From: Tachypleus tridentatus
Taxonomy: Eukaryota; Arthropoda; Merostomata; Xiphosura; Limulidae
Reading direction: 5' to 3'
DNA length: 64,000 nucleotides
Assembly: GCF_004210375.1 (NCBI RefSeq)
Contig: NC_134833.1
Span: forward strand, 24,804,063-24,868,062
Below are positions 12,915 through 24,854 of the stretch, piece by piece. Made by a program: the position numbers and the translations under genes. How positions within the stretch are numbered: position 1 is the stretch's first letter; each line of letters opens with the position of its first letter. The notes under the pieces are model-generated. The model ran no database searches. It saw nothing but the letters and a program-made list of their open reading frames with translations, and was not told where the DNA came from.

Positions 12915-12940
12915 ATGAACACCAAATATCCTGGTTATGG
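12915..12940 (+). CDS. PAK-like gene exon 1 (start)
   Basis: ATG plus eight codons and two bases ([10 protein letters not shown]), then donor GTAAGT. The two leftover bases complete GGT with the first base of exon 2, which continues in the only useful frame. Confidence 0.65.
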
Positions 12941-21900: not shown

Positions 21901-24854
21901 ATGTGGTGCCTTGGTGAAAACAAGCATTTTTAAGTATTAAGATTTTAGCTTGTTTGTAACAGTTTCATGTTAACATAGATTACTTGACAATGTATATATA
22001 TTATGAAGATGTTGAAACAACACGTGATGTCAGTGGGTTGTTTTTTGTGTGCTGGCAAGTTTTATTTGTGCATTTGGATGATTACATATTTCTATTTTAC
22101 AGTCAAAATTTGCAGTAAGAGGAGAAGAAACCTAAATTAGAGTTAACCTTGTATTGTAAGGCTGACTCACAGTTATTTATGTTTCCTTTTTTCTCAAATG
22201 GTAACTTTATGTTTGTTTCTTTCCATCACATAGCTGATTTTGGAATAAGTGCTCAGCTCTCCCCAGAACAAAATAAGCGAACATCATTGGTTGGAACTCG
22301 TCGCTGGATGGCTCCAGAATTAGTAAAACAGATAGAGTATGGGCCTGAGGTTGACATTTGGTCCCTCGGCATAACAGCCATTGAAATGGTCAATGGTAAA
22401 CCTCCTTATCATCAAGAAAATAGTGACATGGTAAATGTTGGTAACCAGTAATTACAACCAGTACCCAAATTCTTAAAATCTACATATTTGTACTTTAAAA
22501 CCCAATCGTATGCTTTGTTAAGGATGTCTTTCACCAACTACGGAGAATAGCTATAATAAAAACAAAAACAACAATGTTCACATTATTCAAACATGAAGAT
22601 GTATTGAAGATAATGATGAACAGTGGAATGATGACAGCAACAATGAACATTTGACAAAACTGTATACAGTAACAAACAGTTAATTATTGAATGTTGTGGA
22701 ATGTACATGTTATATTATTATCTTTCAACTTCTTAAACTTTATTTTGTGCAATAGTATGACTACCATTTTGTTAACCCCTTATAAATAAACACTAACACT
22801 AGATAATTCACCCACGGTATTTAATTACTATAAAGGTATATCTTTAGTGATATTTAGACATTATTAGGAAGAATTATCTAAAGATTTGTACACACTGTTA
22901 AGTTAGGTTATTGATTTAGTCATAAAGTCGCACTCTTTTTCAGGTATTTGACTTAATAACACAAAATGGAAAACCAAATATTGAGAATAAAGACAACCTG
23001 TCTCCAGTGTTTCGAGACTTCCTGGACAGGTGTCTAGAAGTGGACATAAGTAAACGATATACTGCATCTGAACTCTTAGAGGTGTGGTATAAATTACTGT
23101 TATTTTATGAGGCTATGTTTGTTTGAGTTGAACCTGTTATCCTCATAACATACACTAAAAAAGCAGTATCATTAAATGTTGGAATTCGTTGTTATTACTG
23201 GCTGTTCATCTTATGTTGTGAAAACTTCAGCTTACTATGGCACATCTCATAGTGTGATATTTATTTATTTTGTAATATTCATAATTCCATAAGATATCAA
23301 TTTTTAATCTGTAAAAATGTTTAGTTTCATTTAAGTTCATCCTACAGTACTGTGCAAATGTGTTAGGACAAAGTCAAAAATCAAATTTCAGGCTACTTTC
23401 AAAGAACAGTTGAAGGTAAATCACAGGTAAAACATGAATATTTTTATTATTATTCACATTTAGTGCAAGAGAAATTTAGTGAGAATGTTTGAGTTCAACA
23501 AACAGTGAATATTTGTTGTGTCCCCCTTTTGCTTTAATAACTATGGAAAGTCTTTCAGTCATTGTTGAAAGACGTTTAATCACAGTTTTCTTTGGAATTT
23601 TACTTGAAATATGTCGAATATACTCCCATATATTTACTTTGGAAGTAACTTTTGATTTGTCAAGTTGTATGTCTATCAAGTCCTAGATCTGCTCAGTTGG
23701 ATTGAAATCGGGGCTCTGTGGGAACCACTCTATCATTTGAATGACTTCAGCAGCATATCTCTCAGCTAATTAATTTCTGCATAGGTTGGATGACGGTATG
23801 GGGTCATTATCTTCTTTGTATTAGAATTCATTACCAATAATTAGCAAAGCACTTGGTCTACCATGATGGATCAAAATCTGGTTCATTATTCCATACAGTT
23901 TGCAAAATCTCCTGCTGAGGTGACACCCCAAACCATCACAATGTCTCTCCCCTGCTCTATCACAGGTGCTATGCATTGAAGTATCTTTTGCCTTTCTTCC
24001 ATGGGACATACAACATGCACTTTGAACTAACTATTTCAAACAAGGACTAATCCATCCATATCAATTCTTTCCAATTATCAGCAGCACAGTTTCTTAACAA
24101 TATTTGGAGAACAAGGTAAAGGTTTTTAACTGCTATACAATCAAATATTCCATTATCATCTAACCTTCTTGATACTGTAAATCTGGACACTTTTCTGTCA
24201 TTTGGCATTTATGTCATGCTTGAGGCCAGTGGCAGTCAGCCTTCTGGGACCACTACAGATAAATTTGATGGAGAGACCAACTGGTATCACATATAGCTTT
24301 TATGCAAACTCTCTGCTCTACTGACAATTCTTGGACTTTTTGGTCTGTGGAATGACAAGATAACATTGTATATGTGTTATTACTGTTTTATCAAGATTTA
24401 TTTGTGGTTTGCTATGAAATTTATTCCTTCTAGTATATACTGGTACAAAGTGCTAGCTTCATTTTACATAGTTAATACATTGCATGCAGTACCATGACAT
24501 TTATTTCAGGCCCTGAATTTATCACTATATTCATTCAAACAGAACCATTATGACACGTACAAGGTACAAGTGTAGGGAATTCTAAAATAATAAGTATTCT
24601 CATCCTGGCTCATTTAATTGTTGAAAGTGATCAGTGAATCACAACCATTACTACAATCAGTAATAACATGGAAGAATTATCCCATAAAATAGAAAGAATG
24701 ACAAAATATTCTTTTGTCCTAACACTTTCACCCAGTACTGTATAAAAAGACTAATTAACCAAACTGTATGTGATGTAGAATAAGCACTTTTGTTAAACTA
24801 ATGTTTTTCTTATTTTTCACACAGCATCCGTTCATGGAAGTTGCTGACCAGTGA
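12915..24854 (+). CDS. membrane-anchored PAK-family serine/threonine kinase (9 exons, 408 aa)
   Basis: Exons: 12915-12940, 13312-13456, 14824-15134, 19296-19482, 20438-20530, 21787-21886, 22234-22430, 22944-23081, 24825-24854. All junctions are GT-AG and keep phase; the sum is 1227 bp. Residues 1-32 are hydrophilic, about 33-53 form one transmembrane segment ([17 protein letters not shown]), 58-150 an acidic/lysine-rich linker, about 152-403 the kinase, then a tail of a few residues. Seen in the kinase: GGSGTVY loop, catalytic K181, helix-C E197, HRDIKGDN (D271), DFG (D289), APE (E316). The stretch TDEEIM..LRSIVS.GDP..KYT before the glycine loop and GDELW after helix C are PAK hallmarks. PAKs phosphorylate Ser/Thr on cytoskeletal and MAPK-pathway proteins. 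No CRIB or autoinhibitory segment is present, so Rho-GTPase gating is not expected. I infer an N-out, kinase-in-cytosol topology. The start ATG follows an in-frame TGA at 12867 with no earlier in-frame ATG. An alternative upstream promoter adding a CRIB cannot be excluded. Confidence 0.88.
13312..13456 (+). CDS. PAK-like gene exon 2 (transmembrane segment)
   Basis: Acceptor tttctattatcag, donor GTGAGA after AAG. Encodes a short Arg/Cys-containing stretch, then the hydrophobic span with flanking R, H and K. Exon 2 also has an internal ATG at 13349 that could serve as start and would still leave the transmembrane segment in place. Confidence 0.75.
13970..14213. mobile_element. mariner-type MITE in intron 2
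   Basis: Inverted ends of about 35 bp: cagggtggtccgtaagtccc on the left mirrors gggagttacgggccaccctg on the right, both continuing into ccatatat/atatgg. The right flank is TA; the left flank is CA, a likely decayed TA. Only 244 bp, no usable transposase. Confidence 0.8.
14216..14300 (-). mobile_element. SINE family 2 fragment
   Basis: ctatctgtgctcagccca, cacgggtattgaaacc and ttagcagcataag match the second SINE; directly adjacent to the MITE. Confidence 0.65.
14625..14765 (-). repeat. dispersed repeat R, copy 2
   Basis: Inverted relative to 6345-6490. Ends about 60 bp before exon 3 of the PAK-like gene. Confidence 0.65.
14824..15134 (+). CDS. PAK-like gene exon 3 (acidic linker, start of kinase)
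   Basis: Acceptor cttTACCAG, donor GTGAGT. Encodes residues 58-160 and ends inside the glycine loop, as PAK alignment predicts. Contains two clear copies of a VTDEE-x-M motif exactly 102 bp (34 codons) apart, plus a faint earlier copy. Confidence 0.88.
15430..16500 (+). mobile_element. DIRS-like retroelement, RT and RNase H relic
   Basis: In intron 3, same strand as the kinase. Reads FGLATCVFY then a stop, then [20 protein letters not shown] and [10 protein letters not shown]...[11 protein letters not shown], followed in another frame by [21 protein letters not shown] is the reverse transcriptase catalytic box form typical of DIRS/Ngaro tyrosine-recombinase retroelements. Near 16013-16230 [14 protein letters not shown] and INTLELLDL fit the linked RNase H, and around 16350 [12 protein letters not shown] and a [14 protein letters not shown] stretch follow. 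Stops and shifts show it is dead. I could not identify its tyrosine recombinase or termini. Confidence 0.72.
16501..17934. other. pyrimidine-rich intron DNA, possible DIRS remainder
   Basis: Long open but unrecognised frames on the + strand (Phe/Ser/Leu-rich, from C/T-rich DNA). Contains short exact direct repeats shared with flanking sequence (see 17497-17552). Confidence 0.4.
17497..17552 (+). repeat. junction of two exact direct repeats
   Basis: Positions 17497-17522 repeat 16647-16672 (26 bp), and 17529-17552 repeat 18597-18620 (24 bp), with six bases (gatatc) between. The block therefore joins pieces found 850 bp upstream and 1070 bp downstream. Confidence 0.75.
17935..18212 (-). mobile_element. 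SINE family 1, full length, in intron 3
   Basis: tttgtttgttttgaatttcg tail on the left; body and head complete, ending ctggccatgcagcgcca on the right. Confidence 0.9.
19001..19125. promoter_or_regulatory. cluster of heat-shock-element arrays in intron 3
   Basis: Alternating TTC and GAA triplets spaced by exactly two bases, the binding pattern of heat shock factor trimers. Five perfect units at 19059-19081, three at 19009-19021 and three at 19113-19125. The first two arrays share the 15-base core agttcgagaaaattc. It lies about 170 bp before exon 4. Function is inferred; it may belong to a transposable element. Confidence 0.5.
19130..19275 (+). mobile_element. solo inverted-repeat end of the 41.9-43.7 kb transposon family
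   Basis: About 145 bp close to 43562-43710: gggtaaatttgaa, aaagtttgaagagaaaaata, ttttccatttac, cacttctgcccagg-like and acaagaaa blocks in the same order. Ends about 20 bp before exon 4. Confidence 0.75.
19296..19482 (+). CDS. PAK-like gene exon 4 (glycine loop, Lys, helix C)
   Basis: Acceptor attggtttag, donor GTAAGT. Encodes [16 protein letters not shown] with the ATP-binding lysine, and [17 protein letters not shown]. Confidence 0.92.
20438..20530 (+). CDS. PAK-like gene exon 5 (hinge)
   Basis: Acceptor tttgtttag, donor GTATGT. Encodes [15 protein letters not shown], with gatekeeper Met, and ETAAVCKE; 31 codons, phase 0 at both ends. Confidence 0.9.
21787..21886 (+). CDS. PAK-like gene exon 6 (catalytic loop)
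   Basis: Acceptor atttcatttag, donor GTAAGT. Encodes [20 protein letters not shown] and [13 protein letters not shown]: catalytic Asp, Lys and Asn all present. Confidence 0.93.
22234..22430 (+). CDS. PAK-like gene exon 7 (DFG to helix F)
   Basis: Acceptor ccatcacatag, donor GTAAAT. Encodes [44 protein letters not shown] and GKPPY. The position of the usual PAK activation-loop Thr is Ser305, and the usual GTPYW is GTRRW. Confidence 0.93.
22944..23081 (+). CDS. PAK-like gene exon 8 (C-lobe)
   Basis: Acceptor cactctttttcag, donor GTGTGG. Encodes [26 protein letters not shown] and [10 protein letters not shown], including the conserved C-lobe Arg. Confidence 0.92.
23345..24740 (-). mobile_element. 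Tc1-like DNA transposon with dead transposase, in last intron
   Basis: Inverted ends cagtactgtgcaaatgtgtt (left) and aacactttcacccagtactg (right), flanked on both sides by TA, the Tc1/mariner target. On the minus strand the C-terminal transposase signature is readable ([32 protein letters not shown]), as is a DNDP-like stretch ([10 protein letters not shown]) near 23800. Stops break the frame. 1396 bp, near the usual length of this superfamily. Confidence 0.88.
24825..24854 (+). CDS. PAK-like gene exon 9 (end)
   Basis: Acceptor tatttttcacacag, then HPFMEVADQ and TGA. The HPF motif closes the kinase fold; the longer C-terminal tail of group I PAKs is missing. Confidence 0.85.
   Translation, partial: HPFMEVADQ

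Follow-up and report, generated by a model that had tools for sequence, protein, structure and literature searches.

Kinase gene of the window

The window, i.e., the complete 64,000-nt stretch of Tachypleus tridentatus DNA analyzed here (C9:24804063-24868062; contig labels C1 to C19 refer to the 2.17 Gb assembly of 205 contigs), harbors a gene whose 5' exons encode membrane-spanning segments and whose 3' exons encode a PAK-type protein kinase (Table 1). Four coagulogen matches of 87-94% identity at C11:9.017-9.022 Mb likewise mark the genome as that of a horseshoe crab. Most probably, the kinase gene belongs to a family in which multi-pass membrane exons precede those of a group I PAK 3' half, and which is predicted to give rise to membrane kinases that operate free of GTPases. 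As stated in a preliminary description of the locus, nine exons join in phase; all introns are bordered by gt and ag, the frame ends with TGA, and the product comprises 408 residues plus the stop. Both junctions singled out there, 12940-13312 and 13456-14824, are correct. In case of the 26-nt stretch taken for exon 1, the donor end is retained, but its status as a complete exon is not, since sibling copies show a longer coding exon. A hydrophobic span is situated at approximately residues 33-55 of the product (mean Kyte-Doolittle (KD) hydropathy of 2.49 over 19 residues). In the linker exon (exon 3 of the window gene; also L021 and L027), a VTDEE(N/I)M... segment is repeated internally, and the length differs among copies.

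Membrane module

Exon 1 of the siblings has a length of approximately 345-460 nt and encodes two or three further spans. A membrane anchor had been proposed and is retained, but as a module of three to four spans carried by the siblings; the single-span reading of the gene was rejected once they had revealed the longer exon 1. Upstream of the same donor, the C11 copies L054 and L058 contain an uninterrupted frame starting with MNEKRWKITF and encoding two clear spans and a third one by homology. The long exon 1 is open as well in the window-type copies L030, L033, L034, L037, L038, and L020 and in L065, L066, and L067, which represent other types. Three hydrophobic spans at KD >=1.6 precede the kinase in each of the sibling B, C10, and C11 copies, with a fourth one recognized by homology in case of C11. 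Sibling B (C9:24.654 Mb, approximately 162 kb from the window copy) encodes an uninterrupted protein of 515 residues and is 98.9-100% identical to the window gene in exons 2-9, and the C10 copy is open over 421 residues, up to the point in exon 8 at which the fetched sequence ends. Both start with MD-, the ATG of sibling B being embedded in an AAAATGG context. A Cys pair is conserved in the loop ahead of the last span (YPDYxxCxxGC), and module types are only 40-62% identical to sibling B.

At the level of sequence comparison, no credible match of the module was found in Pfam, NCBIfam, or the PDB sequences, and its assignment to a known domain was rejected for this reason. Splice sites of exon 2 score well with approximate matrices. 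Among 29 copies, the gt donor is present in all and the ag acceptor in 26; two of the remaining three copies end at the locus edge, and one (L024) has diverged. Due to the genome-wide recurrence of its frame and the splice borders kept in the copies, exon 2 is more than a chance feature. A chance hydrophobic pseudo-exon was ruled out mainly by this in-frame recurrence.

Kinase domain and absence of the GTPase-binding region

The Pfam Pkinase profile matches residues 152-403 of the window product (E 3e-75). The domain is of the group I PAK type: PAK3, PAK1, and PAK2 are the best matches among the PDB sequences with 350-365 bits over the listed entries, and the best entry of each reaches approximately 362-365 bits versus at most 275 bits for PAK4 and 204 bits for MST. 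All catalytic residues attributed to the kinase in the preliminary description are indeed there, namely the VAVK lysine, the helix C glutamate, HRDIK, DFG, and APE, and they are also kept in sibling B and in the C10 copy. Departures of the window kinase are a Ser at the first glycine of the G-loop and RR in place of PY in VGTPYWMAPE. The activation loop carries a Ser at the residue matching Thr423 of PAK1.

A profile search that included residues 1-150 revealed no PBD/CRIB in the window protein at E values up to 1. In the genome, ten PBD matches were found (22 candidates, all scored), none of them on C9 and none within approximately 0.9 Mb of any listed membrane exon 2. The autoinhibitory segment of group I PAKs, which overlaps the PBD, was not found in the window product either, where an unrelated autoinhibitory segment is possible. 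In the siblings, the exons preceding exon 3 code for the membrane module at the place where the PBD and the autoinhibitory part would be expected, in agreement with the proposed membrane-spanning segment in the place of this region. Joining of exon 3 to an upstream CRIB exon was not found at the DNA level, and a CRIB encoded on an upstream exon was rejected, as the genome-wide PBD search places none there.

Size, integrity, and coding signal of the family

Rather than being an isolated oddity, the gene is part of a large family with membrane exon 2 at 106 places (E below 1e-3). With the kinase part as query, at least 151 genome matches were obtained at E<=1e-5 (best 150 of 1526 first-look candidates scored), and with residues 1-162 of the window product at least 164 at E<=1 (best 150 of 254 first-look candidates scored). 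A divergent exon 2 of C11 yielded 137 matches at E<=1 (142 candidates, all scored).

Among the 33 loci L009-L041, some of which overlap, 29 contain exon 2 followed by the PAK linker exon. Exon 1 is accompanied by exon 2 within 1.5 kb at 86 of 127 places (median 394 nt), and 47 of these pairs are stop-free in both exons. Taken separately, the matched stretch, which is partial in some cases, is stop-free in 64 of 127 exon-1 and 91 of 106 exon-2 matches. For at least 34 of the 106 exon-2 places, a listed kinase exon 7 follows on the same strand at a distance of no more than 30 kb. At least 21 loci, which do not include the window locus, lack stops in the matched parts of exons 1, 2, and 7, the three exons covered by this count, and in 18 of the 21, the exon 1 match begins no later than query position 47 and extends to the end of the exon.

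Full-length, 100% identical matches to the exon-2 query occur 26 times, on C11 (21-84 Mb), C19 (58.97-59.07 Mb), and C13 (248.6 Mb). Eleven fetched C11 copies share 97.7-99.5% DNA identity with L050 over 1.7-3.1 kb; judged by this identity, the near-identical C11 copies are a recent burst. Further copies of kinase exon 7, 78-82% identical to the window, are located at C5:36.98-37.04 and 58.96-59.16, C1:178.69, and C19:27.31 Mb. They contain one stop each, have no listed membrane exon 2 within 100 kb, and are possibly decayed or members of a separate branch.

In exon 1 of the window copy (L031), three A-runs are each one base shorter than in sibling B, which shifts the frame and results in an in-frame stop at 12867-12869. 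Since all three changes fall in A-runs, in which long-read assemblies often err, they may be assembly errors. Their reality is favored by L029, which is located on another contig and has the same three shortened runs. L032, L035, and L036 vary at these runs as well, L035 and L036 being frame-shifted. With exons 2-9 open, the window copy may thus be an intact gene with assembly errors, a pseudogene of recent date, or a remnant with a single span.

For sibling B and the C10 copy, the ratio of nonsynonymous to synonymous substitution rates (dN/dS; NG86) is 0.28 in the membrane module and 0.41 in the kinase. Exon 1 alone gives 0.14-0.51 in the ten pairs of five copies, and an excess of third-position differences at p<0.001 was observed in nine of these ten, non-independent pairs. 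As the differences concentrate at third codon positions, exon 1 evolves as coding DNA, and we read it as protein-coding under constraint. Based on its frame, borders, and context, we read exon 2 as coding, but fast-changing.

Several observations weigh against a family of functional membrane kinases. Stops occur in 63 of 127 exon-1 matches, so that much of the family is decayed, and the window copy itself is among the disrupted members. Three of the 21 stop-free loci are partial in exon 1 (C13:248.6, C11:37.49, and C4:45.67 Mb), and the last of these (L036) is frame-shifted there. L039, the sole C11 kinase read in detail, has a frame-shifted exon 4. With respect to the coding signal, the third-position excess of exon 2 alone reaches p<0.05 in no more than one of ten pairs. 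Furthermore, in each of the nine between-subfamily pairs, exon 1 exceeds intron 1 in divergence (0.28-0.42 versus p of approximately 0.24-0.29), which renders the neutral reference of dN/dS uncertain; the ratio was dropped as sole proof for this reason and codon-position counts were added. The divergence of exon 2 is 0.18-0.37, i.e., lower than that of intron 1 in four, equal in one, and higher in four of these pairs. Possible reasons are constraint on or conversion of intron 1 (window 12941-13311 and siblings), or rapid change of the exons.

It is conceivable, though in our view not the better account, that segmental duplication spread dead copies, among them the window copy and most other members of the family, with few functional members at most. 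Besides the exon-1 stops, this is in agreement with the shortened A-runs common to the window copy and L029, the frame shifts in exon 1 of L035 and L036 and in exon 4 of L039, the relics L074-L077, which lack intact frames, and the close similarity of the eleven C11 copies to L050. On the other hand, the 47 stop-free pairs of exons 1 and 2, the stop-free sets of exons 1, 2, and 7, and the near-full exon 1 in 18 of the latter speak against it, as does the confinement of the window changes to A-runs.

Somewhat more doubtful is the explanation that the module senses ligands as a receptor, or is a gamete- or immune-specific surface protein, with the kinase as its output, i.e., a lineage-specific receptor-kinase repertoire. 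The size of the family, which is partly recent and partly clustered, the low identity between module types, and the conserved Cys pair of the loop would fit, but a credible relative of the module is lacking in Pfam, NCBIfam, and the PDB sequences.

That the kinase and the membrane exons are no more than neighbors, separate or non-coding, the fusion being a prediction artefact and the kinase starting at an exon 3 Met (e.g., 14957), is very improbable, since in-frame Met codons inside exon 3 and the weak codon-position counts of exon 2 alone are opposed by the ordered arrangement of exon 2 and linker, which includes a C11 copy at 40% exon 2 identity, by the exon 2 borders kept among the copies read, and by the coding-type evolution of exon 1.

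Probable origin from an ordinary PAK gene

Two ordinary PAK loci that combine PBD exons with kinase exons of a group I-like type were identified at C13:78.89-78.93 and C7:132.89-132.91 Mb. The comparison of intron borders covered exons 3, 4, and 7. The junction of exons 3 and 4 as well as the acceptor and donor of exon 7 are situated at the same codon and in the same phase in the window gene and in the C7 and C13 PAKs, and the exon 4 donor position agrees with the C7 PAK. Judged by eye, the C7 linker (IEKEEVKNGSRLGLDGKDI) is closer to the window linker than that of C13. Because the tested intron borders from exon 3 on match those of CRIB-bearing PAKs, we conclude that the membrane exons were joined to a following PAK 3' half. 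Most likely, the part from exon 3 onward derives from a PAK gene via a DNA-level duplication that broke within the intron preceding exon 3.

Over exons 4 and 7, the window gene is 65% identical to the C7 PAK and 60% to human PAK1, versus 90% between the C7 PAK and human PAK1, which reflects fast evolution of the membrane family. In a tree of these two exons, the ordinary PAKs of this genome cluster with human PAK1-3 (support 96), apart from the four membrane copies; the tree comprises nine sequences, is unrooted, does not date the origin, and includes a C11 row with 14 masked positions.

No source could be found for the membrane exons. Modules without a kinase were considered as donor genes, but L074-L076 and L077 look like decayed copies, and none was identified as donor. 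At L074, approximately 5.4 kb 3' of exon 2 contain no kinase match, and neither do the 8 kb of L077, while L075 and L076 cover little sequence 3' of exon 2.

Comparison with known kinases and predicted mechanism

With group I PAKs (PAK1/2/3), to which Drosophila Pak belongs, the family shares the kinase domain with its TDEEIM..LRSIVS.GDP start, the PEQxKRxxxVGT activation loop, and the tested intron borders. It differs from them in the multi-pass module that takes the place of PBD/CRIB and autoinhibitory segment and in its large copy number, and the window copy in addition in the RR that follows the GT of the activation loop instead of PY. Group II PAKs (PAK4/5/6, mbt) have a PAK-type kinase in common with the family, but match approximately 90 bits weaker. 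On C5 and C2, likely group II loci are found whose large kinase exon is undivided and which have PBD matches in the same region. Receptor serine/threonine kinases of the TGF-beta receptor type likewise combine a membrane part with a Ser/Thr kinase. However, these are single-pass proteins of the TKL group, whereas the horseshoe crab family is multi-pass with a PAK kinase of the STE group. An artificial counterpart is the membrane-targeted PAK1-CAAX mentioned in PMC8776968. In both cases a PAK kinase is placed at the membrane, there by a laboratory lipid tag and here by a natural, encoded anchor without CRIB.

In the proposed scheme, the group I PAK 3' half, from the linker exon onward, would have come to lie behind the multi-pass membrane exons. 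Intact members are predicted to possess three to four spans and a cytosolic PAK kinase tail, and the loop with the conserved Cys pair before the last span would be outside or lumenal if the kinase is cytosolic. Lacking the GTPase-binding and autoinhibitory segment, the kinase would reside permanently at a membrane. As CRIB and autoinhibitory segment, which are elements of group I PAK control (PMC8776968), are absent, switching by Cdc42/Rac in the known way is not expected. Activation may instead proceed by trans-phosphorylation on clustering or via the membrane module, and the activation-loop serine could serve as the route of switching on. Among predicted mechanisms, GTPase-independent membrane signaling thus appears the likeliest, with topology, expression, activity, and regulation of the proteins being inferred.

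Other features of the window

Apart from the kinase gene, the window contains fragments of a ligand-gated ion channel and a glycosyltransferase, a repeat, and an open frame on the reverse strand (Table 1). The repeat, similar stretches of which occur as well, looks tRNA-derived and is presumably of a kind present in horseshoe crab DNA. The open frame of 256 codons has no Pfam match and probably, as a guess, originates from a mobile element. In case of the glycosyltransferase fragment, the Pfam match is confined to 49481-49720 (PF01531, E 3e-12), and the piece 50368-50211 has none. Fucosyltransferase activity is enriched in horseshoe crab tandem clusters, as stated in PMC7210998. An Rfam search across the window gave nothing at gathering scores.

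Table 1. Exons of the kinase gene and further features of the window (window positions).
Feature	Position	Strand	Remark
Exon 1, long form	12597..12940	+	5' coding exon of the membrane module; open in nine siblings, disrupted in the window copy
26-nt stretch read earlier as exon 1 (MNTKYPGYG)	12915..12940	+	3' end of exon 1, internal Met
Exon 2	13312..13456	+	YPD(F/Y)xRCxxGC loop and last membrane span
Exon 3	14824..15134	+	Linker with internal repeats, PAK kinase start; similar to the PAK linker exon on C7
Repeat	17930..18220		tRNA-derived-looking, interspersed
Exon 4	19296..19482	+	G-loop, VAVK lysine, helix C; acceptor as in ordinary PAKs on C7 and C13, donor as in C7
Exon 5	20438..20530	+	Hinge region
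Exon 6	21787..21886	+	Catalytic loop HRDIKGDN
Exon 7	22234..22430	+	DFG, activation loop, helix F; borders as in ordinary PAKs on C7 and C13
Exon 8	22944..23081	+	C-lobe
Exon 9	24825..24854	+	Final residues HPFMEVADQ, stop TGA
Candidate polyadenylation signal AATAAA	25319..25324	+	Spotted by eye
Ligand-gated ion channel fragment	33980..34342	-	Lig_chan, E 4e-10; ionotropic receptor-like
Open frame	43096..43863	-	
Glycosyltransferase family 11 fragment	49481..50368	-	Alpha-1,2-fucosyltransferase type

Implications

PAK is a textbook GTPase effector, defined by CRIB and autoinhibitory segment. No report of a PAK expansion or a membrane PAK in horseshoe crabs was found in the literature, which was searched in part with narrow terms and apart from supplements and annotation databases, where some of the copies may be named. 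For Carcinoscorpius, 230 tandem gene clusters are described (PMC7210998), and the main text of this paper, as far as accessible, contains neither 'PAK' nor 'kinase'. In PMC7011531, 'pak' occurs twice, the one occurrence displayed being 'Pakistan'.

Within the reach of this search, the expansion is unreported, and it concerns a group noted for genome duplication and its immune chemistry. If true, a conserved switch kinase was re-wired by exon joining, with the CRIB half dropped, a membrane module gained, and the family expanded. The proteins would then add an undescribed membrane domain and, as naturally occurring proteins, allow GTPase-free, membrane-clustered PAK signaling to be tested. Beyond this, one may tentatively speculate about a large horseshoe crab repertoire of multi-pass Ser/Thr kinases that resemble receptors and are built from PAK and an undescribed three- to four-span domain. 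In these, PAK signaling would no longer be coupled to Rho GTPases, but controlled from outside the cell or by the membrane.

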